From Betaproteobacteria bacterium (GTDB lineage: Bacteria > Pseudomonadota > Gammaproteobacteria > Burkholderiales > SG8-41), in NCBI GenBank assembly GCA_021730905.1, contig JAKFYK010000044.1, forward strand, positions 1 to 64,000: DNA of 64,000 bases. Direction: 5' to 3'. Positions 6,836 through 42,628 of this stretch are shown in pieces. A program made the position numbers and the translations under genes. The notes below the pieces were generated by a model. That model saw only the letters and a program-made list of their open reading frames with translations. It had not been told where the DNA came from and did no database searches. Every line of letters starts with the position of its first letter. Positions within the stretch are counted from its first letter, which is position 1.

Positions 6836-6890
6836 CGCTTTTTGTACTCTTGAACACTGAATGAGTCGGCAATGCAATTGCGTCCGGCTA

Positions 6891-7661: not shown

Positions 7662-7730
7662 TTCTGTCCCTCATGTAGAATATGATTTGTTATCCGGTTT
7701 ATGCACATAATCAGTGGAGGCATGGTATCC

Positions 7731-10845: not shown

Positions 10846-10886
10846 TTGGCTTTTTGTTTTGCTCTGACGACTGCGTCGCAATATCT

Positions 10887-12098: not shown

Positions 12099-12112
12099 AG
12101 GGGAGCAGACAT

Positions 12113-15264: not shown

Positions 15265-15286
15265 TTTAGCTAGATTGGGGTACAAA

Positions 15287-16384: not shown

Positions 16385-16631
16385 CTATGGGCCTTCTTAA
16401 AGTTTGGGGCTGCACTAGCAAAGGTTTTCCTGCTGTTCCGCGGGACTGCCAATGGGAAATACTGCGAGATTTATTTTACGGTGTGGCAACCAAGGACTTG
16501 TTAACGCAATGGACAACGCTTGTCGAGTGATCAACATATTTTCGACAGGCATAGTAAGATTAACCTACAAGGGCATCAAGAACGGCACGAAGATATGATG
16601 TCGGCTTGGGTGAGCCATGAGGAGAGGTGTG
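16385..16631. other. Leader region of the thiF-nitroreductase operon with a dyad
   Basis: No gene seen. A dyad TGTCGA-N15-TCGACA occupies 16521-16547, about 85 bases before the GTG start at 16632, and could be an operator. A loose GG-N10-GC match at about 16404-16420 is too weak to call as a sigma-54 promoter. Confidence 0.4.
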
Positions 16632-21280: not shown

Positions 21281-23355
21281 TCGTGACTCGCGATCGTGGT
21301 GCTAGTGTCGGTTGTATTGGCGGGACTGTGAAGCGGCAGCACCACGCGGAAAACGGTGCCCCGTGCTTCGCGGCTGTCCACGTCTATTCGACCGCCGAGC
21401 TCCCGCACGTATTGCCGCGTCTCATAGGTGCCGATCCCCATTCCGGTAGCCTTGGTTGATTCGAAGGGCTTGAAAAGTCGGTTGCGAAGGAATTGCTCGC
21501 TCATGCCACAGCCGGTATCAGTGATCTCAATTATGGCGGAGTCTTGTTCCCGCAAGAGCCGCACTCGCACCTCTCCATCCGCTGGAGTGGCTTCGATCGC
21601 GTTCTGGATCAAGTGTCCAATCACTCGTTCAAGCCGCACCGGATGGCCGACTATGCGCACCGTATCATCATGCAGTTCAAGCCGGGGAACGGGTTTCGAG
21701 CCGGCCTTAGCCGCCAGCGTACGCCGTAACAGTTCGTCGAGCGCCAGCGGCACAGCAGGTTCCAGCGTATAGGCACCGCGCAACTGAACCAGCAGCCGCT
21801 TCATTTTTTCAACCGAATTGGCGACTGTCCCAAGCATGTCTTCCTGAAAAGCAGGATTGTTCTTATGTCTCTCCGCATTCGACATTATCAGCGATAACTG
21901 CGCGATTAGATTTTTCAGATCATGTACTACGAAAGCGGACATGCGATTGAATGACTCAAACTGGCGGGCCACCAGCAGCGCCTTGGCAGCCTCTAGTTGC
22001 GCGAGATAGCTTGCTGCCTGTCTGCCAGCCGTCTTCAAAATATCGCTTACCTCCCAATCGAAGTTGATTCTACCTTTGGAACGCGCTAGCAGTACAAAGC
22101 CAAGCAATCGCTCATGGAGTATGAGCGGCACTACCAGCCACGCTTGCGGGGTTGTGCGCAGCCATTCCGGAATTCTCAGGCCATCGTAAGTATCGTCCTG
22201 TGCCTCGTGTTCCGTAACGTCGAGGACCCATTCGCGGCTTTGCAGAAACTGGCACAGCGGACTGTCGGTTGGTTCTAACCCCTTGGCCGCAGGCATGTTC
22301 CAATGGGCAACCCGTTCGAAGATGCCCGAGTCCGGGGCGAGCCAGAGAGCTCCTCCCGGACTGTCCACGAGTTCGGCAATCGCCTGGATGGAGCGCTCGT
22401 GCAATTGAGTTCCCGGTTCGCCTTCAGAGAGCGTCCGCGTAAACCGCAACCATTCCTCACGGTAGTCGTAGCGATAACTGAAAAAATGCTTGCTGAGTAA
22501 AACTTTTAACCGGGCGCGTAGTGAGCCGGAGAAAAATATGATGAAGAGGAGCAGAATCGCGCCGAATAGGAACGTCACCTGTAGCACGGCTCCCCAACTG
22601 CCACCGAAGTAGCGGATGTAGTAACCTGCCGCAGCCATTACGAGTAGGTACACCGCAGCACCGGAGATAGTAGTTGTGTGGAATACCACGCGGCGCGAAA
22701 CGGCAACGTCGAGCGACAACCCAGGGTTGCGGGCCGTTGCCACGGCAAGCAGCGGCACAACAAGGACATCGACTATGCCCCGAGCGGCCCAGATGTCGTT
22801 ACTCAGGCGGCGGAATAGCAGAGCGTCGGAGTAAAGGTAGAAATCGCAAGCGAACATGCCGCCCAGTCCCAAGCACAGAAACTTGATTCCCCACCGGCGC
22901 TGCGGATGGACATTGCGAAAGAGCTGCTCGATCAACACCATGCCAATAACTGCCAGCACCAGTCGACCGAAAATGGCGAATACGTTCGGTCCTGCGGCAG
23001 CGGTTCTGCCCGAGTAAATTTCGGCAACGAGAGCAACGGCGCAAATCGCGAAGATGCCTACTGCAATAGGCCGCAAAGTGCGCGCGGATTTCCAAGCGTA
23101 GCCTAGCAGCACCAATAAAAATGCGAACCAGGCTGCATTGCGTAGAATTTCGAAAATGCCCACGGCTAGTTCGGGCGTTTGCGGATTTGCGGCAACATAT
23201 GCCAGCACTGATGCCCAAGTAGCTGTTGCGGCACTGGCGAATGCGAGCAGCATGCCCTGCACACGCCCGCGCCAGCTCTTCAGCAGTATTGCGAAAAAAG
23301 CCAAGTATGCCGCAGCGGCCAGGGCATAGCTTACAGTCCCAATCGGTATCGCCAT
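21277..23355 (-). CDS. prsK: PrsK, PEP-CTERM system sensor histidine kinase
   Basis: A 692-residue membrane histidine kinase. The N-terminal third has about nine to ten hydrophobic segments (residues 5-290). A GAF-like domain follows (about 310-455), then the histidine phosphotransfer helix with FVVHDLKNLIAQL (His near 478). The HATPase domain has the N box QNAIEAT and the G1 box DTGCGMS. This is the standard PrsK layout. The gene is followed by prsR with a four-base overlap, so the pair is translationally coupled. The stimulus is unknown, and the many membrane helices suggest a signal within or at the membrane. Confidence 0.95.
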   Translation of the reverse strand: MAIPIGTVSYALAAAAYLAFFAILLKSWRGRVQGMLLAFASAATATWASVLAYVAANPQTPELAVGIFEILRNAAWFAFLLVLLGYAWKSARTLRPIAVGIFAICAVALVAEIYSGRTAAAGPNVFAIFGRLVLAVIGMVLIEQLFRNVHPQRRWGIKFLCLGLGGMFACDFYLYSDALLFRRLSNDIWAARGIVDVLVVPLLAVATARNPGLSLDVAVSRRVVFHTTTISGAAVYLLVMAAAGYYIRYFGGSWGAVLQVTFLFGAILLLFIIFFSGSLRARLKVLLSKHFFSYRYDYREEWLRFTRTLSEGEPGTQLHERSIQAIAELVDSPGGALWLAPDSGIFERVAHWNMPAAKGLEPTDSPLCQFLQSREWVLDVTEHEAQDDTYDGLRIPEWLRTTPQAWLVVPLILHERLLGFVLLARSKGRINFDWEVSDILKTAGRQAASYLAQLEAAKALLVARQFESFNRMSAFVVHDLKNLIAQLSLIMSNAERHKNNPAFQEDMLGTVANSVEKMKRLLVQLRGAYTLEPAVPLALDELLRRTLAAKAGSKPVPRLELHDDTVRIVGHPVRLERVIGHLIQNAIEATPADGEVRVRLLREQDSAIIEITDTGCGMSEQFLRNRLFKPFESTKATGMGIGTYETRQYVRELGGRIDVDSREARGTVFRVVLPLHSPANTTDTSTTIASHE

Positions 23356-26903: not shown

Positions 26904-27761
26904 TCAACTGGAACGTGTGCGGCGACGGGCAAACCCCAGTCCTACCAAGCCCAATCCCAGCAATGCAATCGAGGCCGGCTCGGGTATTTTTCCTGTAGCA
27001 GTAAGTTGCTTTAATTTAAAGGCATCACCTAACTCACCAGCGATGACCAGATAGCGCCCATCCGGCGTGCCATTAAGGCCGGTATTGGTAAGGGTATTAT
27101 TGCCCACATTGACCATTTGGGCGGTGGTAAACCCTAGATTGGCCAGACTGTTTGTGCAACCAGAAAAGCAAAAATTATTCCCCAGATTAGCATTCCCTAA
27201 ACCAGGAAGGGAGTTACCAGACCAAAGATTAATTTCCGGCGTACCTGCGCCTCCTGACGTCGAACCGCTGCCATTCGAACCAGCGCCGCCTTCCCAGCCA
27301 TAGCCAATCATTAATTTGGTCCAATCTACGGTATTTCCCTCTCCGGCGTCTATAACAACAATATCCGTATAGCCACCTTTATTATCTATCGCGTGGCCAG
27401 GCGTACCATCACTGGCCTCATTGGTACCGGCAGCTTCCTGATGATTCCTTATCCCAATCCCCAAATCACCTTGGTAAGTGAAACCCGCAGGCAACGCGAC
27501 GCTGTTAGGAGCGGACGTGCCTGCCGCAAGCACCCAATTGCTAGTTGTATTAGTGTTCACCGTGGAGTATGCGTATAACTTGATAGTAGCGCCTGCTGTG
27601 AGCCCAGTACCGGTTATGCTAGTTTCCGTTATGGTCGAGCTTGGCAAGTTGGCTGTGTACTGAAAGTCCCACTTATAGCTAAGCGCATTGGCGCCAGTGG
27701 CTATCAAAGCCGCGGCCAACGCAAGGACCAGCTTGGTGTATGAGCGCATCGTATTTTTCAT
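26904..27761 (-). CDS. PEP-CTERM sorting domain surface protein (second)
   Basis: A secreted exosortase substrate of 285 residues. The signal peptide runs MRSYTKLVLALAAALIATG and ends near NALS. The mature body is Gly/Asn/Thr-rich with beta character and holds a CFSGC pair that could form a disulphide. The C-terminus is IPEPASIALLGLGLVGLG followed by the basic tail ARRRTRSS. AGGAAC about nine bases upstream supports the start at 27761. Upstream, on the same strand, are a -24/-12 promoter (27877-27893) and two boxes of the TGTCGGA-N5-TTACA type, so PrsR control is likely. Homologues have no defined enzymatic role; it is probably a surface or matrix component. Confidence 0.93.
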   Translation of the reverse strand: MKNTMRSYTKLVLALAAALIATGANALSYKWDFQYTANLPSSTITETSITGTGLTAGATIKLYAYSTVNTNTTSNWVLAAGTSAPNSVALPAGFTYQGDLGIGIRNHQEAAGTNEASDGTPGHAIDNKGGYTDIVVIDAGEGNTVDWTKLMIGYGWEGGAGSNGSGSTSGGAGTPEINLWSGNSLPGLGNANLGNNFCFSGCTNSLANLGFTTAQMVNVGNNTLTNTGLNGTPDGRYLVIAGELGDAFKLKQLTATGKIPEPASIALLGLGLVGLGFARRRTRSS

Positions 27762-28339: not shown

Positions 28340-31090
28340 TCATGGCCCAATGCGATTGAGTAGAGCGCGTGCCTCCTCAAGTTGGTCGAACTTCCTGCCT
28401 GATGCCAACAGAGTCTTCAGTTCGCTCCGGGCACGGGCGGTGTCGCCCGCCTTCACCAGAGCCTGCACTAAATGGTAGCGAATTTCTGGATTGTCTTTAT
28501 CCAGCGACAGTGCTTTGGTAAGAACGGGCAAGCCTTCAAGCAATTTGCCCTGGCTCACCAATATCCAGCCTGCAGTGTCGGCCAGCCGCGCATCGTTGGG
28601 CTTTAACTGAAAGGCTTGTATCGCGTAGTCAGCTGCTTTGGGGTCGCCTTGCTGATGTAGTGCGATGGCGAGATTGTTGAGCGCGGGCGCATGCTTCGGA
28701 CTTACTTTCAGTATGGCCTGATAATGCTCGATGGATACTTTGGTGCGCCCAGCCTTACCTTCGATTTCGGCCAGGTAAAAACGCGTGCTGAGGTCTTCGG
28801 GGTGTGCTTTAACCCATTCCTGCAGCCCCGCGTCAGAAACGGCACCCTTACCAAGGAAAGTGCGAGCCTGATGCAGCCGTACACGAATCAGTCCGTTGGC
28901 TTCGAGGGCATTGGCGTTTTCAAAAGCCGCAGCCGCGCGTGCGTAGTCCTGCTGACCCATACCAATTTCGCCTTCAAGGATGTGACCGGTGGCCCGCTTG
29001 GGAACTAGCCGCTGAATTTGTTTTGCAAGGTCTATCGCCTCGGCATAGCGCCCGAACTGCATCAGGTTTTCCGCGAGCGCCGATTGGACGGCGATATTCT
29101 GCGGAAGAATTTTTAGGGTACGACGAAGGATGTTGTCGGCCTCGCGCAGGTTCCCATTACTTGAAAAGGCTTCAGCGAGCTTGATCTGCAGGGCAACCGA
29201 CATGGGTTCTAGTCGCGTGGCAGTGGCGTAGCTGACGATCGCCTCGTCTTTCTTTCCCATGGCCTTCTGAATATCACCAACCAATTCCGCCAGGCGCGCC
29301 TCCTTGGGGCTAAGCTCGCGTGCTTTCTGCGCTGGTGCCAGAGCATCGGCGGGTTGGCCTGCCTGCAATAGTGCGTTCGCATACACTGCAAAGGGCAGCA
29401 TGGAATCCGGATGGTCGTCCACCGCCTTGCGCAGCCAATCGAGTCCTTCTTTTTGGCGTCCCGCGTCAAATTCCATCGTGGCCAGCAACAGCAATGCATC
29501 GAGATTGCGCGGGTCAAGTTTGAGAACGCTCAGCATGCGCGCTCGTGCATCCTCCGGCTTCTTGTCCTTAATGTCGATCTGCGCGAGTGAGGCAGCGGAC
29601 GCGAAGGACTTGGGTTCCAGTTTAAGTGCCTGCTCAAAACTCGCTCGCGCCGCGGCCCAATCCTGCTTGGCGCGATACACCGCACCTTTGAGAAAATGGG
29701 TATCCGCCTTATCGGGCCGGCGCTTTTCCAGAGACTGTACAGCCCGCATCGCCTTGTCAGTTTCATTTTGTGCGATCAATATCATGATCAGCGTATGGTC
29801 AGCGCGGGATTCGCCCGGATTCAATGTAATAGCGGATTCAAGTTCAGCGATGCCTTTTTGCCGATCGCCGGTCTTGATTTGTACCACACCGAGCTTGACG
29901 CGGTTATTGGCGTTGTCCGGGTCAAGCGCCACCGATTTTTCATAATATTCCTTGGCCTTGCGCGTATGGCCGACCTGCAAATAGGCTTCTCCGGCCAAGG
30001 CCAACAGTTCGGCATCTCCTTCTACCAGCGGAATCATGGGCTCAAGCAGATAGACTGCGCTCTGTGGTTGCCCTTTGCGAATCAGTACCGCAGCCAGCAT
30101 TTTGCGCGCGTAGATGTTGCCCGGTTGCAGCGTAAGGTAGGCGGTGAATGTAAACTCAGCCTGTTGCAGCTCATTGCTGGCGAAGTGCATGGCACCTTTT
30201 AAAAGCAGACTGGGCATGTGGCGCGGAATGATGCGGAAAACCGCTGCCAGATTGTCGGTGCATTCCTCAAATTTGCGCTCACGCAGCGCTATGGAGGCCA
30301 GTGTGAATCTCAGCATGGCATTGGCGGGAGCACGCTTTAGTGCTTGCGCGAGATCGCCACGCGCCTCGGCGTACTTTCCGAGATCCGCGTAGGCCGCAGC
30401 CTGGCTTACTCGAGCTACGACATGAGCGGGATTTAAAGTGGAAGCCTGCTGATAGGCCTTCAGCCCCTCCTCACGTTTTGAGTCGCCACGCAGCAGGTCA
30501 CCTTTTGCAATCCATGCTTCAACGTTCGTTGGGGCGCTAGCCAAGACCTCTTCGGTCAGTTTGTACGCTGTCTTTCGATCATTCTCCACTGCTGCAAGTC
30601 TTGCCAGACCGAGCTTTGCCTCTGCCGGCTTGCTCTTTGTTGCGAGAAGGTATTGCGTACGTGCCTCGGTGAACTGCTTCAATTCTAATTGTGCACGCCC
30701 AATGAGCAGGGATACCTGGGCTATAGTCTCGGCATCAAGATCCTTGCCCTTGCGCAATTCGTCGATCGCCTGCTGATATTGCTCAGTTTCAATCAGTACC
30801 TGTCCGAGTGTCGGCAGAACGCGCGCCTGCGACACGCCGAGTTCCAGTGCCCTGCGCAATTTCTTCTCGGCGTCCACGGCCTCACCGACTTCGGCGTAAC
30901 TTAAACCGATCAGGGTATTCGCTTCAACGTTGTCAGGCTCTAGTGCAAGTGCGTTCTTGAGCTCAATGATGGCGGCTATGAAGTCGCCCTTGGCCCGATA
31001 GCCCTCTGCAGAGCGTATCAAATCCGACGGCGACGTACTGCAACCGGTGGTGAGGAGGGCAAGGAAAAACAGCAGTGTTACGGCCTTCAT
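28340..31090 (-). CDS. prsT: PEP-CTERM system TPR-repeat lipoprotein PrsT (copy 2)
   Basis: A second PrsT-like lipoprotein of about 916 residues. I use ATG 31090 (MKAVTLLFFLALLTTGCS), which gives a clean lipoprotein signal with lipobox LTTGC. The longer ORF to 31390 would bury this signal behind 100 residues with no sense. The body is continuous TPRs, and the opening IRSAEGYRAKGDFIAAIIELKNAL mirrors copy 1. Two such genes within 30 kb imply duplication and perhaps service to two export machines. It lies downstream of the ATP-grasp/Mur-ligase block on the same strand but 415 bases away, so it probably has its own promoter; none was recognised. Confidence 0.9.
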   Translation of the reverse strand: MKAVTLLFFLALLTTGCSTSPSDLIRSAEGYRAKGDFIAAIIELKNALALEPDNVEANTLIGLSYAEVGEAVDAEKKLRRALELGVSQARVLPTLGQVLIETEQYQQAIDELRKGKDLDAETIAQVSLLIGRAQLELKQFTEARTQYLLATKSKPAEAKLGLARLAAVENDRKTAYKLTEEVLASAPTNVEAWIAKGDLLRGDSKREEGLKAYQQASTLNPAHVVARVSQAAAYADLGKYAEARGDLAQALKRAPANAMLRFTLASIALRERKFEECTDNLAAVFRIIPRHMPSLLLKGAMHFASNELQQAEFTFTAYLTLQPGNIYARKMLAAVLIRKGQPQSAVYLLEPMIPLVEGDAELLALAGEAYLQVGHTRKAKEYYEKSVALDPDNANNRVKLGVVQIKTGDRQKGIAELESAITLNPGESRADHTLIMILIAQNETDKAMRAVQSLEKRRPDKADTHFLKGAVYRAKQDWAAARASFEQALKLEPKSFASAASLAQIDIKDKKPEDARARMLSVLKLDPRNLDALLLLATMEFDAGRQKEGLDWLRKAVDDHPDSMLPFAVYANALLQAGQPADALAPAQKARELSPKEARLAELVGDIQKAMGKKDEAIVSYATATRLEPMSVALQIKLAEAFSSNGNLREADNILRRTLKILPQNIAVQSALAENLMQFGRYAEAIDLAKQIQRLVPKRATGHILEGEIGMGQQDYARAAAAFENANALEANGLIRVRLHQARTFLGKGAVSDAGLQEWVKAHPEDLSTRFYLAEIEGKAGRTKVSIEHYQAILKVSPKHAPALNNLAIALHQQGDPKAADYAIQAFQLKPNDARLADTAGWILVSQGKLLEGLPVLTKALSLDKDNPEIRYHLVQALVKAGDTARARSELKTLLASGRKFDQLEEARALLNRIGP

Positions 31091-31505
31091 TACTCCACAT
31101 CCGAAGGGCTTGCCGAATCCACCAAAACCAGCGGTCACAAGGTTGAACTTGCCGTTAACATCGAGCAGATTGTGCATCACAAAATTGTGTATCAGTCTCC
31201 GCTTCATAACTGTAGCTTGATGACCGAACAGATTGCTTATTTGGCGTGCGGAATAAAAGGATCTGTTTAAAACAAGATCAACTTCTTCATTATAACATCC
31301 GTCGTCTTGCAAGTGAGCGGTGGATAAGATGCTAGTACGAATAACCGGCGTGGTGCGGTCAAGCGAGCGAAGCACGCGTGACTCGTTCATGGAACACGCG
31401 AGAAGGGCAAGGGTGTTGAAATGATCGATCAGACGATCTTAGTGCCTTCCCAAGGGGTTAGCCGTCAATAATCGGCAATTCGTGAGGCGAGATGGGAGAG
31501 CGGGG
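31091..31505. other. Intergenic region between prsT copy 2 and the Mur-ligase fusion gene
   Basis: 415 bases. The prsT frame is open through most of it, but this is read-through upstream of the real start. No RNA gene, sigma-54 element or PrsR-type box was found. Confidence 0.45.
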
Positions 31506-33407
31506 CTAACGCTGTTTCGTGACGGCGGGGCGTTCCACCATTTCGAGTAAGCGCGTCCTGGCAGTAGAGACCCCCTGGTCGACGGCCGCGCGGCTCTCTG
31601 CATCAAATGCAGTTAGCACATACTCAACACGATTGAGTTTTGCCCCTGTTTTCCCCACGCCGACTTTTATCCGCCGGAAGGCGTCGGTTTGAAATGCCTC
31701 CAGTATGGAGGCAACGCCACGATGCCCGCCCGCACCGCCGTTCAAGCGGGCGCGGACTGACACCATCGGCAGGTCTAGATCGTCGTGCACAAGCACGCAT
31801 TGTTCAGGACTGAACGACATACTATCCGCAAGCCGCTTCAGCCCCGCGCCCGTGAGGTTCATGGCTATTTGCATCTTGATCAGACAGAGTGACCTGCCCT
31901 TCATCGAACCACGCGCAATCCACGCTTCCGGGGCTTTGTCCCAAGTGAATCCCAACGAATCAGCCAGTTTTTCCACCACCTCATAACCAATGTTATGGGG
32001 CGTTCCAACATATTTGGATTCGGGGTTGCCAAGACCGACTATCACCTGCTCATCAGGTTCGATAGTGTGTGGGCTATATGGTGGAACTTGCGCTACCGTG
32101 CCCAAGACAGGCGTGTTGCCTATCAATAGTGGCAGGCCGGAAGGCTTGTTTCGATTGGGACACTCATTGCAGAATGAGTCCCGTCCACAGTCGTCGCGCC
32201 AGCAGGCGACACTGCCGGTACGTGCCAGGATGATGCGAAGCAGGTGATCCTGTTTGCCTGTGCCTTTGAGCAGGACCAGGTCGCCCTCGCGTGTGATCGA
32301 ATTAACGTACTCAGCAGCATCCCGCACATGGCTGAACATGCGCAACGCGTCTTCTCGCCCGTGCTTGCGTGCCTTGAGAACGCTGGACGCCCAAGGCCCT
32401 ACGAATATCGTTATATCCGCAATTTGCTGGGCAAGGATCGCGGTTTTTTCGTACTTCCCCTCCTTTCGGGGGCCGGTGTCAGAAAGCTCACCGATAACGA
32501 TGACTTTCCGCTTGGCCCGCGCCGCCCTCATGAATTCGAAGCACGCGTCAACCGTCCATAGCGATGCTTTGAAATCGTCCCGGATGAACGTCACTCCGTC
32601 AGGCATCGTCACCGGTTGCATGCGCCCTTCAAACGGAGCAACGCTCGCAATTCCTGCGGCACATTCCTCAAGGGTCATGCCCATAGCCAGGCCACCCCCA
32701 ATCGCCCCCAGCACCGAAGGAATCCAGTGCGTACCGCATAGGTGAGTCTGGACTTTCACGCGTTCAGAACCCCTTACCAGAGTCAATGCCAAACGATCCG
32801 GCCAAACTGACCTGATGTCTTCAGCGCGGAGTTCAGCGTTGGGTGACATTCCATACGTGATGACCTTAGCGGCGCAGGTCGCCTTCATGGCCAAGACAAG
32901 TTCGTCATCCGCATTGAGGACCGCAGTGCCGGTCGCAGGCAAGCCCGCGATGAGTTTGCCCACTTCAATGGCAATCCCTTTGCGGGAGTGAAAGGCACTC
33001 CAATGATCGTTTCCAATTACGGTGACGATACCTACACTGGGTTGCAACAGAGCCAGTTTTGTGTCCATCACGCCAGGCCGGTCTTCACTCAGTTCAGCCA
33101 CGCAGAAGTCGTGCGTAGTGCGCACTCGCAAGATCGTCTTCGCGACCTCAGGCAGGACATTGAGAGAAGAGGGGCTTCCCACCCCCCGCCTCTTGTAAGA
33201 AAGAACTGCCAGCAACAGTTCTTTTGCCGTGGTCTTGCCAGCACTTCCGGTGATACCGAAAAAAACCGGCTTCTTGAGAAACGGACGCCAGCGCTGAGCG
33301 ATTTTGACGATAGTGAGGTCTACATACTGATCGCCTACTAGTTCGCGAACACGCCAAGCGAGACCATCGCGGACATACGTGTAAATTCTACCTAGCGTCG
33401 GGCGCAT
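31506..33407 (-). CDS. Mur-ligase-like protein fused to a peptidyl-tRNA hydrolase domain
   Basis: A 633-residue two-part protein. Residues about 45-410 are a MurF-like Mur ligase: P-loop GSAGKTTAKELL, VIGNDHWSAFHSRKGIA, TAVLNADDE, and FEGRMQPVTMPDG followed by DDFKAS. It should form a peptide-type bond with ATP. A cysteine cluster CWRDDCGRDSFCNECP (near 425) may bind zinc. Residues about 450-625 are a complete peptidyl-tRNA hydrolase fold: VGLGNPESKY, the catalytic His in TPHNIGY, the MNLTG asparagine and the HDDLDLP aspartate. The Asn of the usual GGHNG is Arg here (GGHRG). Two ATP-grasp genes precede it, 87 bases away. The fusion is directly visible; the reaction is not known. Confidence 0.85.
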   Translation of the reverse strand: MRPTLGRIYTYVRDGLAWRVRELVGDQYVDLTIVKIAQRWRPFLKKPVFFGITGSAGKTTAKELLLAVLSYKRRGVGSPSSLNVLPEVAKTILRVRTTHDFCVAELSEDRPGVMDTKLALLQPSVGIVTVIGNDHWSAFHSRKGIAIEVGKLIAGLPATGTAVLNADDELVLAMKATCAAKVITYGMSPNAELRAEDIRSVWPDRLALTLVRGSERVKVQTHLCGTHWIPSVLGAIGGGLAMGMTLEECAAGIASVAPFEGRMQPVTMPDGVTFIRDDFKASLWTVDACFEFMRAARAKRKVIVIGELSDTGPRKEGKYEKTAILAQQIADITIFVGPWASSVLKARKHGREDALRMFSHVRDAAEYVNSITREGDLVLLKGTGKQDHLLRIILARTGSVACWRDDCGRDSFCNECPNRNKPSGLPLLIGNTPVLGTVAQVPPYSPHTIEPDEQVIVGLGNPESKYVGTPHNIGYEVVEKLADSLGFTWDKAPEAWIARGSMKGRSLCLIKMQIAMNLTGAGLKRLADSMSFSPEQCVLVHDDLDLPMVSVRARLNGGAGGHRGVASILEAFQTDAFRRIKVGVGKTGAKLNRVEYVLTAFDAESRAAVDQGVSTARTRLLEMVERPAVTKQR

Positions 33408-33494: not shown

Positions 33495-34619
33495 TCACTT
33501 GCGAGCGTGCCGGGCAACGAATGCCTGCAACTGTTCATCGTACATTCCCCGCCCAGATGCGTACTGGAGAATGTAAGTGCTGCCCGTGACATTGACTTCC
33601 AGTACAATGGGACCACGCTCGGTAAGCGCTATATCCCAGTGCTGGAATGGCAACATGGGAAACAGATGCGCGCCATGTGTGACCAGCTCCAGCACGTCCT
33701 TCCAATCAGGCAAGATGGCGCCAACCAGTTCTGCCCCGGTATCAGGGTGCCGGGTCAGCACCTCCTGGTGCATGCCGTAGCCGCGCACGACGCGTTCTAC
33801 TTGGCCGGTGTCAAGATCGACCGCCGCGAGCAGATTGCCGGCTTCACCCCAGGAGTAATTGTCGGTGATGTTATGACCCGTGATGACTTTCCAAACTGCG
33901 CGGAATGGCCGTACGCCAGTTTCATCGGAGAGCACCACCACGCGCACACTAGAGATGGCCGGGCCGGAGAGATGGCGGAGCGCACCGTGCTGGCTGAGCT
34001 GTTCCTGGAACAAATAACCACTCCCGGCCTTCACATATTTGCGTGGCGCATCCAAGCCGGCAAGAAACCCGACAAGCGGCAGCCGCTCGCCCGCCGCGGT
34101 CAGGAGTGCATCGGCGGCAGCGTCATACCCGAGCAGGGCAAAATCGCCCGAACCGACGTCGCCATAGACCGGCTTCGCAAATAACGGATACGGTGCAGGG
34201 CCGCGTAGCCAACTGCCGAGCGCATCAAGTAATGCGAAGTCCCGCGTGTCGAAAAAATGACGACCGTGCCGCTCGTACAAGCCATGCAGGCGCGGGATGG
34301 GTAATCCACCCGCTTTGAGCAGGGAATACATGCACAATTTGTCGAATACCAGATTGCGCCAAGCGGGAGGGTTCAACTGGTCGTCGATCCAGTGCAGCAT
34401 GCGCCAGCCGGCGACATGCTCTTTCGGGTAGCGCCCAGTGAATTCGTCAGAGAATAGGCGAAAGTCGAAGTAGTCGCTAATGCCGAAATGAGTTGCGCGC
34501 ATCTTTAGCGAGAGAATCTCGCGCGCTTGGTGCGACCAACTCTTACCGGTCTGAGCGCGCACGGCAGCTAAGTTTCTGAAGAGTTCACTTGCGTAACGCC
34601 ATCCAGGCAAAGCTGCCAT
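33495..34619 (-). CDS. ATP-grasp protein, sugar-transfer-associated type (second gene)
   Basis: A 374-residue ATP-grasp ligase similar to the 'sugar-transfer associated ATP-grasp' group (PF14397). Visible are the ATP-binding FAKPVYGDVGSGDFALL strand-loop, the SSVRVVVLSD strand, the conserved HNITDNYSWGEAGNL block, and the metal-binding end HWDIALTERGPIVLEVNV. Such enzymes join an activated carboxylate to an amine or hydroxyl. I use ATG 34619, with AAGG just before it, rather than the 34685 start, which overlaps the upstream gene. It is a paralogue of the preceding gene and is followed by the Mur-ligase fusion. No transporter or sugar transferase is adjacent. Confidence 0.82.
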   Translation of the reverse strand: MAALPGWRYASELFRNLAAVRAQTGKSWSHQAREILSLKMRATHFGISDYFDFRLFSDEFTGRYPKEHVAGWRMLHWIDDQLNPPAWRNLVFDKLCMYSLLKAGGLPIPRLHGLYERHGRHFFDTRDFALLDALGSWLRGPAPYPLFAKPVYGDVGSGDFALLGYDAAADALLTAAGERLPLVGFLAGLDAPRKYVKAGSGYLFQEQLSQHGALRHLSGPAISSVRVVVLSDETGVRPFRAVWKVITGHNITDNYSWGEAGNLLAAVDLDTGQVERVVRGYGMHQEVLTRHPDTGAELVGAILPDWKDVLELVTHGAHLFPMLPFQHWDIALTERGPIVLEVNVTGSTYILQYASGRGMYDEQLQAFVARHARK

Positions 34620-34656
34620 AAACCTTTCCCTGATCCTTCGCGGGTTGAAACGATAA

Positions 34657-35748
34657 CTACTTGCGGCGCGCTCTGAGCGCATCAAGCATCAGTTCGTTAA
34701 GCATGCCCGAGTGCGTGACTGCCTGCGGAATACCAAGATCGGCCTCGGTGTTGACTTCCATCAAAACCGGCCCATCTTCGCAGATTGCCACATCCCAGTT
34801 CTGCAGACACAGGCCCGGAAAATGTGGCGCCACCGCGAGGCAAAGTTCTACAACCCGGTCCCAATGCGGCAGCCTAAAGCCTTGCAGCGTGCGCCCCGTA
34901 GTCGGATGACAGACGACAGGATCGGCTGCAGGCCCAAGACCGCCGATCGTATTGCCCACCGTTCCCGTCTTGACATCGACTGCCGCGATAAGGTTTCCGT
35001 GCCTCCCGAGGGAGAAGTTGTCGGTCATGTTGCTCCCTGCGACCACTTTCCAGAACGCGGTGTGTATCCTAGGTATAGTCCCAACGACAACCACGATTAC
35101 CCGGATGCAGCTGATGCGGGGGCCGGTTATCTCGGCGATCTCGCCATGCGGTATCAGCACTTCCTGCAAGAGCTTGCCGTCATACGGCTCGAACTCGAAA
35201 TCCGCAAGCAGTTCATCCATTCCGGTGAGCGTGCCGTCCAGCAAACGGAACTGATCGGAATCCTGCAGATAAGCGGAAATACCAAGCGCGCCACGCCCAT
35301 AGGTACCACATACCGGCTTGACGAACACGGGATAGGGTGCGTCGAAGCGCAGAAAGGCCCGGACGTCTTCCAGCGTGGCGAGCCGCTTTTCATCGCCAAT
35401 GAACCGGCCCTTTCTGTTGAAAATGGCGTGGGTCAGGGGAATCGGAAAACCGAACCTGGCGAGCAGAGCGTAGGTGATGACTTTGTCGTTCGCAAGGACG
35501 CGAGAATGCGAAGCATTAAGACTGCGGTCGAGAAACGTACTGTAACGGCGCCCAATGAAGCTCGCCTTCGATGTACCGCCATACAAGCTGTCGTCGAAGA
35601 GACGAAGATCGTAATACTCGGTCAAGCCAAGGGCGCGCGGAGACAGCCGTAACTTGAGAATCTCTAGGAACTGACTCAGCCGGCTCTTTCCCGTCCGCGC
35701 CCTGGCATCAGCCGCCATGCGAGAAACCGCCATGATATTTTTCAGCAT
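34657..35748 (-). CDS. ATP-grasp protein, sugar-transfer-associated type (first gene)
   Basis: A 363-residue ATP-grasp paralogue that leads the leftward operon. Shared features are FVKPVCGTYGRGALGIS (ATP-binding loop), SCIRVIVVV, SNMTDNFSLGRHGNLIAAVD and NWDVAICEDGPVLMEVNTE at the metal site. The N-terminal ALGLTEYYDLRLFDD stretch resembles LRLSPRALGLTEYY-type openings in this family and recurs in the next gene. The pair probably arose by duplication, and two different ligases could act on successive steps. About 495 bases separate it from a divergent patatin-NRPS operon, so a common control region is possible. Confidence 0.82.
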   Translation of the reverse strand: MLKNIMAVSRMAADARARTGKSRLSQFLEILKLRLSPRALGLTEYYDLRLFDDSLYGGTSKASFIGRRYSTFLDRSLNASHSRVLANDKVITYALLARFGFPIPLTHAIFNRKGRFIGDEKRLATLEDVRAFLRFDAPYPVFVKPVCGTYGRGALGISAYLQDSDQFRLLDGTLTGMDELLADFEFEPYDGKLLQEVLIPHGEIAEITGPRISCIRVIVVVVGTIPRIHTAFWKVVAGSNMTDNFSLGRHGNLIAAVDVKTGTVGNTIGGLGPAADPVVCHPTTGRTLQGFRLPHWDRVVELCLAVAPHFPGLCLQNWDVAICEDGPVLMEVNTEADLGIPQAVTHSGMLNELMLDALRARRK

Positions 35749-36243
35749 AACGCAGATCAGGTTGTTGTCATTTGTGTGAATGACGCGTATTCGGTCCAGG
35801 TTGGCAGTGCGCTCAACTTACTCGCTTTCAGTGTGAGGCATCATCGGCAATGATCTGCGGTGAGACGCGCCGAACACTCTCGATATTTCTCACAGCGCGT
35901 ACTCCTTGTAGCCTTTGATGCAATAGCGCAAGTTGATGTCGTCAATCTCTTTTCAACTGTGACTCGCTACCATCGCATCGTTGAACGTGTAACAATATAC
36001 CATGCTGTGTTCGGCGAACTCGCGCAGTAACTGGCTGTGGAAGGCGCACTGAATATTGAGGATATGAACGGTGGCCGCGCCACTGCTTCTCTGTCCTATG
36101 TATTTCAATACGGCCGAATTCCGCGACTGCGGTCTACCACTGCGAATTTAGCGCGCAAGTTCACGTGACTCGAACGCGCGAGTTCTCCTCGGAGCAATCG
36201 GAACCTATTATACTGGCCACTATTGTTAGCAATTCAGTCAGCC
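35749..36243. other. Divergent control region between ATP-grasp and patatin-NRPS operons
   Basis: About 495 bases with no gene. It must contain two divergent promoters. A GG-N12-GC element at about 36214-36231 has the wrong spacing for sigma-54, and no PrsR-type box is present, so this block does not obviously belong to the PrsR regulon. Confidence 0.45.
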
Positions 36244-38073
36244 ATGGAACATCAGAAAATCCGCACGCGTATTCACCAAGCTTTACGTGCTAGCGCGGTA
36301 TTCGGCGCGCTAGGGGACGAGCCCTTGGCTGACCTGGTGGACGCGATGGAGTGGCGCGAAGTGCTCGGTGGCGCAAGCGTGTTCAGCGAGGGCGATCCCT
36401 CCGACAGCGCTGTCTTTGTCATCAGCGGCGGTTTGCGCGTATCGCGCCGTGACCGCGACGGGCAGGTCTTGCTCTATAACCAAGTTTACCCGGGCCAGTG
36501 TATCGGTGAGATCAACATGATTCTGCAGCAGCCGCGCGCCCAAGATGTTACTGCCGTGCGTGACTCCACGCTGGCGCTGCTGCGCCGGGATGCCTATGAG
36601 GCGTTGCTGGTGCGTTATCCTCTGGCCGTGAGCGGGGTGTTCCTGAAGGCGGTTTATGACCGCCTGCGTTTTGACAGCAAGGTGAAGGATAAAGGGCTCG
36701 CTCAGACCTTTGCTGTCGTACCGCTGCATGAGGGCGTCGATGTTCATGCGCTCACCGGCGCTCTGGTGCAGGCCCTTGCCAAGAGCGGAGCGGCGGCAAA
36801 TGAGCGCGTTGGGCACTTGTGGGTCCGTCCTGACACGCAGCAAATCCTGCTCGGCGGCGAGCCGCTAACCGACCCCGAGAGTGTCGGGGCGCTGCAGTAC
36901 ACCCATGAGGTAATGGTCTTCGAGGCAGAGGCTCGTGCCAGCGACTGGACACGCTACGCCCTGCGCCAGGCCGATCAAGTGATCTTCGTGGCGGCTGCGG
37001 GCAGCCCCTCGGGTTTAAGCGCAATCGAGCGCGAGTTGATGCAAGAGCCGGGCTACCAGCTCAAACGCCATCATTTGGTTCTGATGCACCCAAGCAGCAG
37101 TGGCCAACCCGAACTTCCAACGCCTTGGCTGAAAGCACGTAGCGTCGAGCGCATTTACCCGCTGCGTACCGGTTCCGTGACGGATAGTGAGCATTTGGCG
37201 CGCTTTCTCACTGGCAGAGCGGTCGGCGTGGTGCTGGGCGGCGGTGGCGCGCGCGGTTTTGCCCATCTGGGCGTGCTCAAGGCGCTTGCCGAAGCCAACA
37301 TCCCGACAGACCTGATAGGTGGCAACAGCATGGGCGCACTGATAGGCGCGCAGGTGGCCTGCGGCGACTCGTTGGAGCAAATTCTTGCCCAGACCGTGCG
37401 CTTTGCCTCCGGCGGTGAGCGCCTCACCATGCCACTGGTGTCCTTGGTATCAGGCCGACGTGTCGAGCGCGACTTGAAGCGCATGTTCGGCGAGCGCCTC
37501 ATCGAGGAACTGTGGCGGCCCTTCTTTGCCGCGGCTTGCAATCTAAGCCGCGGTAGTACCACGGTGCAAGATCAGGGCTTGTTATGGCGAGCCGTGCTGG
37601 CCAGCAATTCGCCCGCCGGCCTTTTCCCGCCGGTGCTGTACAACGGCGAGCTACTGGTGGACGGCGCGATTCTGGAGAACGTGCCGGTGCAGCCGATGCG
37701 CATGCGATTGGGCGCACCGCTGGAGCGTCGGCACGGCAACGGTAGTGTGATTGCGATTGATGTGGACGTGCGCACGAATTTGCGGGCCGATGTGGGCCTC
37801 GCGCGTCTCACACCTCTGAGCACCCTTAAGCGTCATCTGCGCTCAGGCGCACCCGCCTCGCCCGGTATTGCCGAGATCCTCTATAGCGCCGGCCATATAG
37901 GCGGCGCGAGCCGGCGTGGCCAGACCATGGCTCAGGCGAATTACTATTTGGAGCCGCCAGTGGCCGAGTTTCCTCTGATGGCTTACGAGCGCGCCGCCGA
38001 GATAGCCGATGCCGGGTATCGCTATGCTATAGAAAAGATAAGTCAATGGGATCGCAGCAACCTGCCGCTTTGA
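36244..38073 (+). CDS. cNMP-binding domain fused to patatin-like phospholipase (NTE type)
   Basis: A 609-residue lysophospholipase-like protein. An N-terminal cyclic-nucleotide-binding fold (residues about 20-140) has IGEINMILQQPRAQDV at the phosphate-binding cassette position. A linker with a MinD-like look follows (about 155-320), then a patatin domain (about 325-600). The oxyanion loop is GGGGARGFAHLGVL, the serine elbow GNSMG and the catalytic aspartate DGAILENVP. I prefer ATG 36244 to the TTG at 36223. The last 28 bases overlap the NRPS start, so the two are translationally coupled. The family hydrolyses acyl esters of membrane lipids; here it may supply or trim acyl chains for the NRPS, which is inference. 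Confidence 0.9.
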   Translation: MEHQKIRTRIHQALRASAVFGALGDEPLADLVDAMEWREVLGGASVFSEGDPSDSAVFVISGGLRVSRRDRDGQVLLYNQVYPGQCIGEINMILQQPRAQDVTAVRDSTLALLRRDAYEALLVRYPLAVSGVFLKAVYDRLRFDSKVKDKGLAQTFAVVPLHEGVDVHALTGALVQALAKSGAAANERVGHLWVRPDTQQILLGGEPLTDPESVGALQYTHEVMVFEAEARASDWTRYALRQADQVIFVAAAGSPSGLSAIERELMQEPGYQLKRHHLVLMHPSSSGQPELPTPWLKARSVERIYPLRTGSVTDSEHLARFLTGRAVGVVLGGGGARGFAHLGVLKALAEANIPTDLIGGNSMGALIGAQVACGDSLEQILAQTVRFASGGERLTMPLVSLVSGRRVERDLKRMFGERLIEELWRPFFAAACNLSRGSTTVQDQGLLWRAVLASNSPAGLFPPVLYNGELLVDGAILENVPVQPMRMRLGAPLERRHGNGSVIAIDVDVRTNLRADVGLARLTPLSTLKRHLRSGAPASPGIAEILYSAGHIGGASRRGQTMAQANYYLEPPVAEFPLMAYERAAEIADAGYRYAIEKISQWDRSNLPL

Positions 38074-41000
38074 GTCCCATCGTGTTGCCTTTGGCTGTCA
38101 GCCAGCGCGAGGTCTGGTTGGATCAGCGCGCCTGGCCCGGCAGCGCGCATCTCAATATTGGTGGCGGCGGCTTCCTGATTGGTCCCCTGGACCAGGCCTT
38201 GTTCATGCTTGCCTTACGCCAACTGGTGGCCGATACCGAGGCATTGCGCTTAGTACCACTGTCCGATGGCACGCAGCGACTGCTGCCGCCGTTTGAACCG
38301 CAACTGGAACTGATCGATGTATCCGACGCGCCGGATGTGCGCGGGGCCATGCGGGACTGGTGGCGGCAACGGATCAGCGATCCTTTTGTCTTGGGAGAAC
38401 TGCCGCCCTGGCGCTTCGCATTGCTACGTGGAGGCAACGAACTGCACGGCCTGTCCATCCAGTTTCACCACCTCATCATGGACGGCTGGGGCACCACACA
38501 GGTCATGCGGCGCTGGAGCGAAATTTACAATGCGCTTGCGCAAGGGCAGTGCGTTCCCGAGTTGCCGGGTGCATCCTATCAGCACTTTATAGAAGAGTCG
38601 AATCAGTACCGGCGTTCCCACGCATTCGCGCGCGATGAGGCATTTTGGCTGAAGCAACTCAGCGAGCCGCCTGCACCACTGATTGAGAATCGTCTACGCC
38701 AGCGCGAATCCGATGTATTGCCACAGGCCCATCTGGTGCAGCAAGTCTTGGAGCACGAAGCCTATTCGCAACTAGGGCGCCAGGTGGCGGCACTCGGCTT
38801 TACACCATTCAGTTGCTTTCTGGCCGCACTGGCACTGTATTTCTGGCGTACCAGCGGGCGCGATGAGTTGGTTATCGGTGTGCCGTGTCTTAACCGCAGT
38901 GGCCGGCGTTTCGAATATACGCCGGGCATGTTCGTCGGCCTGCTCGCATTGCGACTGCGAATCACCCCGGGCATGACCTCGGTGCAATTGCTTGAACAAG
39001 CCAGCAGGCAGATGCAAGCGTCGCTGCGCCATGCGCGCTATCCCTTGAGCGAGTTGGGACACCAGTTGCAGTTGATGCGGCAGGGGCGTGACAGCGTAAT
39101 GGACGTGCTGCTGTCGTTCGAGCGTCAGAACTACCGATTGCAGTTCGGTGCCGCGCAATTGAGGGACTCGCGCCAGCTTTTTGCCGGCAAGGCACGTTAC
39201 CCGCTTGCTGTGACGGTGTGTGAGTTTGACAAGGATGCTGACCTGGAACTGGTACTCGAAGCCAGCACCACGTGCTTTGCGCGCGACGAGACCGAACTGC
39301 TGGGGCGCCGGCTATGGTGTATTGCCAAGCAACTGGCTGCGGACCCCGAGCAACCTCTCGCAGGGCTGGCCATTATGCCGCAGGAGGAGCGCTGGGCAAT
39401 ATTGGAGGGGCTGCACAAGGACTTGGCGCAACTGGATGAACCGCCACCTACCTTCATCGAGAGATTTGAGCATCAGGCGGCGTTGCAGCCCGAGGCCTGC
39501 GCCTTGGTGTGGGATGGCGGCGTGCTCAGCTATGCCGAACTGAACGGTCAGGCTTCCGCGCTGGCGCCGGCGCTGCGTGCGGCCGGTGCCGCGCCAGAGC
39601 GTGTGGTAGCGCTGGCTGTTCCGCGCTCGCCAGAAATGGTGGTGGCGTTGTTGGCTGTGGCCAAATCGGGTGCAGCCTTTCTGCCCTTGGACCTGGATGC
39701 ACCCGAAGCGCGTCTGCGTGAGGTACTGCAAGATAGCGGTGCGGTCGCCCTGCTAGTGTCGCAGGAGACGCCACAGGCAGTAGTGGCGTTGCATGCCAGC
39801 GTACTGCGGGTGCCACGGCCACAGCCCAATGCGGCGACATACAATGTGCCGGACTGGCACAAGGCTGGCCCCGACAACTTGGCGTATGTGCTTTACACCT
39901 CGGGTTCCAGCGGCAAACCCAAGGGCGTAATGATGCCGCATGGCAGTCTGTCGAGACGCCTGGCGTGGCTGGCCAAGAGTTGGGCTATCAACTCGCTCGA
40001 TCGTGCCGCGCAAACCACCCAACTGATCTTCGACCCGGCGCTCATCGAATTGCTGCTCCCGCTTACCCAAGGCGCCAGCGTGGCGCTGCCACCGCCCGGG
40101 CGCCTGCATCCGGAGCGTCTGGCTGAGTTTATGCTGGCGCATGGCGCGACGTTCTGCGCTCTGGTACCCAGCACGCTCGCCGGTGTGCTGAGCGGCTTGC
40201 GCGGGCGCGAACGCCTCAAATTGCGCGTGGCTTGTTGTGGCGGCGAGGTTTTGCCAGTAGAAATGGCGAATCGCTTTCTGGCGGAAACCGGTGCTCAGCT
40301 CTACAACGTCTATGGCCCTACCGAGACGGCGATCTTCGCTACAGCCTGGCGTTGCGTGCCCAGCGCAGGGGATAGCGCGTTGCCGCTGGGCCGCCCTATA
40401 GATGACACACGCATCTATGTGCTGGACGAGCGCTTCCAACCCCAGCCTTTCGGCGTGACGGGCGAGGTGTTCATCGGCGGTGGCGCGCTGGCACGTGCCT
40501 ATCTGGCGCGCCCCGAACTAAGTGACGAGTGCTTTTTGCCTGATCCCTTCCGGCCCGGTGCGCGCATGTACCGCACCGGTGACCGTGGCTGGCTGGATTG
40601 CCAGGGTCAACTGCATTTCGCAGGCCGCACCGATCGCCAGATCAAGCTGCGCGGCTTTCGCATCGAGCCAGGTGATGTCGAGGCCGCCTGCCTTGCCGTG
40701 CCCGGTGTGAAGCAAGCGGTGGTGCAAAAGGTGGAGCACGAAGGCGTGGCACGCCTGCATGCCTGGCTGGAGGGGCAGGTCGAACTCACAACGGCCGAGG
40801 TGCAGGCTGTGCTGCGGACACGCCTGCCCGACTATATGGTGCCCGCAGGCTTCAGTCTGGTACTTACGCTGCCGCTCAATGGCATGGGCAAGATCGATCT
40901 GCAAGCCTTGCCTATGCCGTCTGCGCCATCTGGAAGTGCTGCGCGTCGTGCCCCTTCCGGGGTGCTGGAGCCGGAGTTACTCGCGCTATGGGAGCAAGTA

Positions 41001-41912
41001 CTGCGCGTGCGACCTATAAGCGTGCATGACAATTTCTTCGACTTGGGCGGGGATTCGCTGGCAGCGCTCGCTATCTTCGGTGCGATGGAAGATCGTCTGG
41101 GCCGGCATGTGCCGCTGCAATTGATCAGCGAGTATCCGACGATTGAATTGCTAGCTAGGGTCTTAGCCGCACCACAAGCTCGCCCTGGTGTGCTGCGGCG
41201 ATTGAGCGAAAAGAGCGACGCCCCGCCGTTGTTTTTGGCCGCGTCGGGGTACGGCGACGTATTGCGTTTTCAGACTCTGGCGCGGGCCTTGGCTGGAGTA
41301 ATGAGTGTGTACATGCTGCAACCCCCGTATGGTGATCCGCCCGCCAGCACGGCCGACTTGGCCGAGGTTTATGCTGACAGCGTCACGGCTCTGGGCTTGG
41401 CCCCGGGCTGGGTGGCAGGGTTCTCGGTCGGCGGTGTAGTCGCCTTGGAGACGGCATGCGTGTTGCATGAGCGGGGTGTTGCGCCGCTGGGTCTGATGCT
41501 GCTGGATACCATACATCCTAAAACTGTAGTGGGAAGTAGTGGCTCATGGAATACGCTGGACTGGCTGGTGCGCAAGTTGCATGTGCAGGAACTCACCATG
41601 AATGGCCGGCGACTCGGTGCGATGTTCAGTGATCCCGGGTTGATCGCTCAGGTGATGGCTCAACGCGCCTATCGCTGCCGCGGCTTCGATGGCCCCTGTC
41701 TGTTGATCAAGTCCTCCGGACTGGCGAGTTGGAACCGCATATTGTTCAAGCCCTGGCTGCGCCTGATGCCTGACCGCATCACCGAGCAGGTGGTGAGTGG
41801 CTTGCATGGCTCAATCTTCGAGGCCGGCCATGTGGACGAACTGGCACAGGCGCTTAGCCACTTCGTTTCGGTGCATGCTCGAATGGAAACAACGGGGACA
41901 CACGGCGTATGA
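38046..41912 (+). CDS. Single-module NRPS (condensation-adenylation-carrier-thioesterase)
   Basis: A 1288-residue non-ribosomal peptide synthetase. The condensation domain (1-430) has FHHLIMDGWG. The adenylation domain (about 465-955) has YVLYTSGSSGKPKGV, YGPTETAIFA, YRTGDRG and IKLRGFRIEPGDVEA. The carrier domain (about 970-1045) has DNFFDLGGDSLAAL. The C-terminal thioesterase (1060-1285) has the serine elbow GFSVGG. A hand alignment to GrsA gives an approximate ten-residue code DPIAACVIFK, which does not match a substrate I know. With an N-terminal condensation domain and no loading module, it could acylate one amino acid (lipo-initiation) and release it. It is coupled to the patatin gene before it and the VTT gene after it. 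No phosphopantetheinyl transferase is nearby. Confidence 0.93.
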   Translation: MGSQQPAALSPIVLPLAVSQREVWLDQRAWPGSAHLNIGGGGFLIGPLDQALFMLALRQLVADTEALRLVPLSDGTQRLLPPFEPQLELIDVSDAPDVRGAMRDWWRQRISDPFVLGELPPWRFALLRGGNELHGLSIQFHHLIMDGWGTTQVMRRWSEIYNALAQGQCVPELPGASYQHFIEESNQYRRSHAFARDEAFWLKQLSEPPAPLIENRLRQRESDVLPQAHLVQQVLEHEAYSQLGRQVAALGFTPFSCFLAALALYFWRTSGRDELVIGVPCLNRSGRRFEYTPGMFVGLLALRLRITPGMTSVQLLEQASRQMQASLRHARYPLSELGHQLQLMRQGRDSVMDVLLSFERQNYRLQFGAAQLRDSRQLFAGKARYPLAVTVCEFDKDADLELVLEASTTCFARDETELLGRRLWCIAKQLAADPEQPLAGLAIMPQEERWAILEGLHKDLAQLDEPPPTFIERFEHQAALQPEACALVWDGGVLSYAELNGQASALAPALRAAGAAPERVVALAVPRSPEMVVALLAVAKSGAAFLPLDLDAPEARLREVLQDSGAVALLVSQETPQAVVALHASVLRVPRPQPNAATYNVPDWHKAGPDNLAYVLYTSGSSGKPKGVMMPHGSLSRRLAWLAKSWAINSLDRAAQTTQLIFDPALIELLLPLTQGASVALPPPGRLHPERLAEFMLAHGATFCALVPSTLAGVLSGLRGRERLKLRVACCGGEVLPVEMANRFLAETGAQLYNVYGPTETAIFATAWRCVPSAGDSALPLGRPIDDTRIYVLDERFQPQPFGVTGEVFIGGGALARAYLARPELSDECFLPDPFRPGARMYRTGDRGWLDCQGQLHFAGRTDRQIKLRGFRIEPGDVEAACLAVPGVKQAVVQKVEHEGVARLHAWLEGQVELTTAEVQAVLRTRLPDYMVPAGFSLVLTLPLNGMGKIDLQALPMPSAPSGSAARRAPSGVLEPELLALWEQVLRVRPISVHDNFFDLGGDSLAALAIFGAMEDRLGRHVPLQLISEYPTIELLARVLAAPQARPGVLRRLSEKSDAPPLFLAASGYGDVLRFQTLARALAGVMSVYMLQPPYGDPPASTADLAEVYADSVTALGLAPGWVAGFSVGGVVALETACVLHERGVAPLGLMLLDTIHPKTVVGSSGSWNTLDWLVRKLHVQELTMNGRRLGAMFSDPGLIAQVMAQRAYRCRGFDGPCLLIKSSGLASWNRILFKPWLRLMPDRITEQVVSGLHGSIFEAGHVDELAQALSHFVSVHARMETTGTHGV

Positions 41913-42628
41913 GCCAGCTTGTTCCGGGATTGCGCCGCCGCCTACTTATTCTCGCGGTTGCTTTGCTTGCTTTGCTGGGATTGACCCTGGCTTGGCGCTG
42001 GTCGCCGCTGCGGGATTTGCTGGAGCCCGAGTATGCCATCAACGGACTACGCCAACTGGGTCAGCGTATGGGGCCACTAGCCGCCATACTGGGATTCGGC
42101 GTCGCGCTTAGTCTGGCTGTGCCATTGATCCTCCTGACGCTGGTCAGCGTGGTGGCCTTCGGACCTTGGATGGGCAGCCTCTATATCCTTGGTGGTGCGC
42201 TACTCGGTGCGGCAGTCAGCCACGGCATGGGAAAGCTTCTAGGGCATGAACTGCTGGTGCGCCTGGGCGGCACGCGTGTCAATTTACTCAGCCAGAGTAT
42301 GGCGCGCCGCGGCTTGGTAGCGGTGATCGCGCTGCGCCTGGTGCCAGTGGCGCCCTTCGCTATTGTCAATATGGTGGCGGGGACGACGCATCTACGTCTG
42401 CGCCATATGTTGCTGGGCACGGCCTTGGGTATGTGCCCCGGTACTTTGGCCGTAGCATTGTTTACTGATCAGCTCATGTTGTCGCTCACGCAACCAGGCC
42501 CGAGCAGCTATGTGCTGCTGGCGCTGACTGTAGCACTGATTGTCGTAGGCGTATGGGGGCTGCGGTACTGGATGAACAAGCAGAAACTCGGCCTTGACGC
42601 GTCAGATGATCCGGGTCGTAACCTCTAG
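41909..42628 (+). CDS. TVP38/TMEM64-type VTT-domain membrane protein
   Basis: A 239-residue inner-membrane protein of the DedA/VTT group. It has an N-terminal helix (11-28), then a re-entrant region rich in Gly, with LGGALLGAAVSHGMGKLLG and ALRLVPVAPFAIVNMVAGTT. The latter is the conserved R-x-x-P-x-x-P-F signature of TVP38 proteins. Further helices follow near the C-terminus. Members act in lipid or lipid-carrier movement across the membrane. The gene starts in the NRPS stop (ATGA, four-base overlap), so it is in the same operon. I infer that it may help move the lipidated NRPS product or a carrier lipid. No good terminator was seen after it. Confidence 0.9.
   Translation: MSQLVPGLRRRLLILAVALLALLGLTLAWRWSPLRDLLEPEYAINGLRQLGQRMGPLAAILGFGVALSLAVPLILLTLVSVVAFGPWMGSLYILGGALLGAAVSHGMGKLLGHELLVRLGGTRVNLLSQSMARRGLVAVIALRLVPVAPFAIVNMVAGTTHLRLRHMLLGTALGMCPGTLAVALFTDQLMLSLTQPGPSSYVLLALTVALIVVGVWGLRYWMNKQKLGLDASDDPGRNL

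Follow-up and report, generated by a model that had tools for sequence, protein, structure and literature searches.

Two ATP-grasp genes of the PF14397 family (ATPgrasp_ST, sugar-transfer associated ATP-grasp) lie in tandem in the window, by which we mean the whole 64,000-nucleotide stretch of Betaproteobacteria bacterium DNA analysed here, and they raise the question of which bond they make and for which product. A preliminary description had them ligate amino acids and stand apart from sugar-polymer systems. Both ORFs are real and correctly placed (Table 1). Their scores are far above the Pfam cut-off of 31.4 bits, they overlap by 29 nt, and no other PF14397 gene was found in the whole genome. 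A and B are old paralogues, about 37% identical. Full ATP- and metal-binding motifs are kept in both, as described earlier: the ATP-grasp Lys (KPV-C/Y-G), the D-A metal motif (NWDVA / HWDIA) and the E-x-N motif (MEVN / EVN). K144, D319, E331 and N333 of A are invariant across 20 relatives, and their equivalents are present in B.

Table 1. Coordinates of the features in the window and the matches that define them.
Feature	Position	Strand	Details
ATP-grasp A (PF14397), first cassette gene	34657-35748	-	363 aa, ATG start; 123.3 bits
ATP-grasp B (PF14397)	33495-34685	-	396 aa from TTG; alternative ATG at 34619; 105.2 bits
Mur ligase / four-Cys motif / Pth fusion	31506-33407	-	633 aa; Mur_ligase_M, Mur_ligase_C and Pept_tRNA_hydro in one ORF
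Mur middle and C domains	32256-33272	-	residues 46-384; PF08245 and PF02875 above cut-off
Four-Cys motif, putative zinc site	32160-32204	-	C402, C407, C413, C416
Pth-type domain	31533-32045	-	residues 455-625; N461, H471, N517, D542 kept; R563
PrsT, XrtA/PEP-CTERM TPR lipoprotein	28340-31390	-	TIGR02917, 718 bits, cut-off 312; probable true start near 31081
PEP-CTERM protein	26904-27761	-	PF07589 and several PEP-CTERM NCBIfam models
PrsK histidine kinase	21277-23355	-	TIGR02916, 898 bits
PrsR sigma-54 response regulator	19898-21280	-	TIGR02915, 738 bits
N-acyl amino acid synthase (FeeM-type)	18642-19466	-	PF21926, 168.7 bits
EDSAP-1 family PEP-CTERM protein	15275-16297	+	NF041538, 196.9 bits
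Module common to G150 and G020	6074-13342		FeeM-like GNAT, LolA-like, ABC ATPase, DUF1302, two FtsX/MacB permeases; Pfam

The predicted structure of A (AlphaFold, pLDDT 91.9) was compared with solved structures. Like the carrier-dependent or peptide ligases LysX/ArgX, RimK, Ddl and PylC, A has the fold and the catalytic motifs of these enzymes, whereas at the sequence level it barely resembles any solved structure (best E 0.016). Both ATP-grasp and Mur enzymes form amide bonds via acyl phosphates. Judged from the modelled fold, amide ligation would be the best chemistry for the pair, and the proposal of amino-acid ligation keeps this part, with the fold of A and the Mur-type neighbour both pointing to amide bonds; the contrast with sugar systems does not stand. 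As we understand it, PF14397 takes its name from gene neighbourhoods and not from sugar chemistry, so that setting ligation against sugar transfer poses a false alternative.

The phylogenetic placement that had been suggested was carried out. A falls in an ortholog clade with copies from Propionivibrio and from genomes G182 and G150 (support 100/99), and B has its closest counterpart in one gene of a G270 tandem pair (89/87). A separate clade (100/100) unites the second PF14397 genes of G182, Propionivibrio, G150 and G020. There are two PF14397 genes each in G182, Propionivibrio, G150, G020 and G107 and four in G270, mostly of different clades.

The window ORFs that were scanned with Pfam or NCBIfam include no glycosyltransferase, in agreement with the preliminary description; UDP-glucose dehydrogenase, NDP-sugar epimerase and polysaccharide deacetylase genes are present. 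A missing adjacent glycosyltransferase had been taken to set the enzymes apart from sugar-polymer systems, but their nearest relatives stand in XrtA (exosortase A)/PEP-CTERM exopolysaccharide loci with glycosyltransferase, amidotransferase, acyl-CoA ligase and N-acyl amino acid synthase genes. Linkage to polysaccharide genes, named earlier as contrary evidence, is thus what the relatives display, both in their XrtA glycosyltransferase loci and in the distribution of XrtA itself. XrtA scored above cut-off in 9 of 10 ATP-grasp carriers against 34 of 144 non-carriers in the order (Fisher p 4e-5), and in 5/5 genomes with a C-terminal fusion (see below) against 44/228 in the class sample (p 3e-4); both p-values are optimistic because the carriers include same-genus pairs and the genomes are not independent. 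Of eight genomes from the same family that were tested, none has XrtA above cut-off or an ATP-grasp match. Compared with other PF14397 systems, A and B share the family scores and the exopolysaccharide setting of the relatives; they differ in the lack of a glycosyltransferase among the scanned window ORFs and in a specific link to XrtA/PEP-CTERM and to a Mur ligase without its N-domain.

The linkage is also physical. In seven of the nine carriers with XrtA (G182, G107, G063, G150, G020, G270 and G039), at least one ATP-grasp gene is no more than about 30 kb away from it, and in G150 and G020 the two ATP-grasps flank XrtA at about 28-30 kb on either side. In G182 the two ATP-grasps and the fusion are placed amid genes matching TIGR03694, TIGR03098, TIGR03099, TIGR03100 and TIGR03101, that is, the XrtA models for an acyltransferase, an acyl-CoA ligase, a decarboxylase and, for the last two, hydrolases. 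The ATP-grasps and fusions of Propionivibrio adjoin TIGR03100, TIGR03101 and TIGR03098 genes, and those of G107, with a Mur-Cys gene, are near TIGR03108 (amidotransferase) and TIGR03088 (glycosyltransferase). In the genome of the window itself, XrtA is found on contig C17, accompanied there by FemAB, an asparagine-synthase-like gene and XrtA glycosyltransferase genes; this exopolysaccharide cluster is on a different contig from the cassette, which lies outside it. A PrsT gene is located directly downstream of the cassette. Like the XrtA/PEP-CTERM system described before, the genome or the relatives have PrsK, PrsR, PrsT, PEP-CTERM proteins, XrtA, FemAB, an amidotransferase and glycosyltransferases, whereas no ATP-grasp or ligase is named among the components in that description (PMC1569441). 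Matches resembling sigma-54 sites occur in the window at chance frequency, with no convincing site just upstream of the ATP-grasps; these matches lend no support to control of the cassette by the PrsR/sigma-54 element.

The left part of the window adds a second connection. Its LolA-like, ABC ATPase, DUF1302, SLT and two FtsX permease genes are 45-69% identical to genes of G150 and G020 (L131/L142); the FeeM-like GNAT of this module has just 30% identity to its counterpart there. In both genomes one PF14397 gene directly adjoins the FtsX gene of the module and a PEP-CTERM gene, with a TIGR03694 acyltransferase two genes on. The sharing of these genes links the ATP-grasps with N-acyl amino acid synthesis and an export-like module.

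A different reading of the neighbourhoods separates them from polysaccharide and sees a unit for small-molecule or peptide biosynthesis, to which the single-module NRPS at 38046-41912 may belong. This C-A-T-TE NRPS is divergent from the ATP-grasps at a distance of about 2.3 kb, the ligase-type folds of A and of the fusion would suit such a unit, and in G016 a PF14397 gene adjoins an NRPS and is near a decarboxylase-like gene and an apparent phosphopantetheinyl transferase, with XrtA on another contig. However, no NRPS is near the ATP-grasps in the stretches read from G182, Propionivibrio, G150, G107 and G270, where XrtA genes are found instead, and with the co-occurrence counts given above we consider such a unit unlikely. 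Anti-phage defence was dismissed, as PADLOC gave no match for the two ATP-grasps or the fusion.

The gene downstream of the ATP-grasps on the same strand had been described as a peptide-type ligase. A Mur-type ligase is indeed present, but the C-terminal third of the protein is a peptidyl-tRNA hydrolase (Pth) domain, which had been overlooked. The UDP-binding N-domain is missing, with only about 45 residues ahead of the Mur middle domain. Between the Mur and Pth parts are four Cys residues, which are invariant in nine aligned members and also occur in the G619, G379, G606 and G583 copies. The AlphaFold model of the fusion has a pLDDT of 90.0 and a pTM of 0.85, and Foldseek matched its parts to MurF (best 4qf5, TM 0.72 by target) and to Pth structures (TM about 0.9). 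Like MurF, the fusion has Mur middle and C domains, a P-loop (GSAGKTT) and a MurF-like fold. It differs from MurF in the lack of the UDP-binding domain, in the extra Cys motif and Pth domain, and at two catalytic places: the DDxYNANP-type motif reads RDDFKAxLW, and V149 stands where 12/12 MurFs compared have Lys, a position which we take to be that of the carbamylated Lys of Mur ligases. With its TIGR01143 score (189.5 bits, below the cut-off of 288.6), the missing N-domain and the changed motifs, a plain MurF was ruled out. The changes at the Lys position and in the motif indicate that the acceptor of the Mur part probably differs from that of MurF.

The fused Pth domain scored 133.3 bits with TIGR00447 (Pth1), above the cut-off of 100. 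Like Pth1 (TIGR00447, PF01195), it has the equivalents of N10, H20, N68 and D93 (E. coli numbering), which are kept in 9/9 fused domains; the importance of N10, H20 and D93 in E. coli Pth1 is known from mutagenesis (PMC4929431). Unlike Pth1, it is fused to a Mur ligase, has Arg for Asn114 and is a second copy beside the separate canonical Pth, with Asn114, that the genome also encodes. Position 114 is Arg or Lys in 9/9 fused domains and Asn in 26/27 canonical Pths.

Proteins of this kind, which we call the Mur-Cys family, form a clade of their own in the tree (100/100), and a family profile gives members about 330 bits or more and ordinary MurFs no more than about 240 bits. The family is rare: it was found in at least 3 of 300 genomes in the order (E 1e-60, whole fusion as query), in at least 5 of 369 in the class sample, own genome included, and in the own genome alone among 399 in the phylum sample, all of these counts being lower bounds because the searches scored the top candidates only. 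A contig scan by generic Mur patterns returned mostly ordinary MurFs, and only L010-L012 were members. A C-terminal Pth domain is present in the own genome, G182, Propionivibrio, the gammaproteobacterial contig L011 and G619; since this domain order is repeated in five genomes and eight proteins, a chimeric assembly as its source was ruled out. The Propionivibrio MAG has four consecutive Mur-Cys-Pth genes in tandem (L010:9373-17019). Mur-Cys proteins without Pth are those of G107, L012, G379 and both G606 copies. In G583 (L099:9153-11066) the order is opposite, with an N-terminal Pth that has Arg at position 114. The eight C-terminal Pth domains are one clade (99/97) and the G583 Pth falls elsewhere. 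Two independent fusions, as the G583 order might imply, are suggestive only: a single origin is compatible with the tree test and stands unrejected (p-AU 0.42). Elsewhere, L098:8025-10699 carries two tandem Mur-Cys genes without Pth and with no ATP-grasps nearby.

The correlation with neighbouring Mur ligases that had been proposed is borne out in part. A Mur ligase without N-domain accompanies the ATP-grasp pair in five genomes (own, G182, Propionivibrio, G107 and G270), the one in G270 (L133:1-4771) being a different MurF-like gene without the Cys motif beside two tandem PF14397 genes. The Mur-Cys family itself is absent from seven carriers (G016, G020, G039, G063, G150, G214 and G270), and it also occurs in G379, G583 and L012, where no XrtA was found above cut-off.

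The altered residues leave room for the fusion to be a non-catalytic scaffold or a degenerate enzyme, with the ATP-grasps alone active. The window copy has Val149 at the Lys position, L011 and two of the four Propionivibrio proteins likewise have a hydrophobic residue there, the DDxYNANP-type motif is replaced, and Asn114 of the Pth part is Arg. The remaining members, including G182 and the other two Propionivibrio copies, keep the Lys, however, and the intact ORF, 64-68% identical across three genomes, conserves the P-loop, the Cys motif and the acidic and DH motifs. We consider a non-catalytic fusion unlikely, although the window copy may have lost activity.

Also unlikely, in our view, is a safety valve in which the Mur domain would be only a tether and the Pth domain would hydrolyse aminoacyl-tRNAs mis-acylated by XrtA-linked N-acyltransferases or FemAB-type enzymes: the catalytic equivalents are kept in all fused domains, N-acyl amino acid synthase genes are present in the window, G182, G150 and G020, and canonical Pth recycles peptidyl-tRNA (PMC4929431), but a canonical Pth is already encoded in the genome, Asn114 is replaced throughout the fused domains, and four tandem copies of the fusion in Propionivibrio seem more than this purpose would need.

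We therefore favour, as the probable reading, an accessory ligation cassette of the XrtA/PEP-CTERM exopolysaccharide and surface-protein system, composed of the two ATP-grasps and the Mur-Cys-Pth fusion. Most likely it makes an amino-acid or peptide component of that system, and we infer its substrates and the role of the Pth domain as follows. From their fold and motifs, A and B would in all likelihood turn a carboxylate into an acyl phosphate and couple it with an amine, each enzyme in a different ligation step. The Mur part would then form a further amide bond, on a substrate presumably not UDP-linked because the UDP-binding domain is missing. The Pth domain might bind or hydrolyse an acyl ester whose carrier is tRNA or a comparable molecule; the fused enzyme would in that case carry out an acylation first and set an aminoacyl ester free afterwards. 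Homology of the Pth domain is what suggests that a tRNA ester is involved; among the loci scanned no tRNA gene is near the cassette, and the only two of the window are about 22 kb away. The product may be a short peptide, a lipo-amino acid or an amino-acid decoration, placed on the exopolysaccharide or in a moiety joined to PEP-CTERM proteins. Points that speak against this reading are the position of the cassette outside the exopolysaccharide cluster, the lack of a convincing sigma-54 site ahead of the ATP-grasps, the Mur-Cys members in G379, G583 and L012, and the NRPS beside the G016 gene.

A more specific form of this scheme, which we regard as a long shot, is that the cassette makes the moiety attached by exosortase A to PEP-CTERM proteins. 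The ATP-grasps would extend an N-acyl amino acid made by the FeeM/TIGR03694 synthases, giving a lipo-peptide that has a free amine, the Mur-Pth protein would build or release one link on a tRNA ester, and the LolA/ABC/FtsX module would carry the product to the outer membrane. In that case the fusion would represent a novel type of Mur ligase, one linked to tRNA. Exosortases have been proposed to be transpeptidases (PMC1569441) and the attached group has been called "some new moiety" (PMC11980579), which makes this form of the scheme testable.

XrtA exopolysaccharide loci encode chemistry that, to our knowledge, is for the most part unassigned, and a rare amide-ligase cassette tied to XrtA offers concrete, testable candidates. 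The Mur-Cys-Pth fusion in XrtA settings is a more interesting find than the contrast of the ATP-grasp pair with sugar systems. Searches of the open-licence literature that paired exosortase with ATP-grasp or with MurF, or combined Mur ligase, Pth and ATP-grasp, gave nothing relevant, and the Mur ligase-Pth fusion is, as far as could be found there, an undescribed architecture. It would connect cell-envelope ligases with tRNA esters.

Two further gene groups of the window were recorded. At 36223-42628, divergent from the ATP-grasps, a cNMP-binding patatin with an NTE P-loop-like domain overlaps the single-module C-A-T-TE NRPS and a VTT-domain membrane protein. At 16617-18568, a ThiF (E1-like) gene overlaps a gene for an Acg-type FMN oxidoreductase, and the two adjoin the FeeM-type N-acyl amino acid synthase gene and a PEP-CTERM gene.
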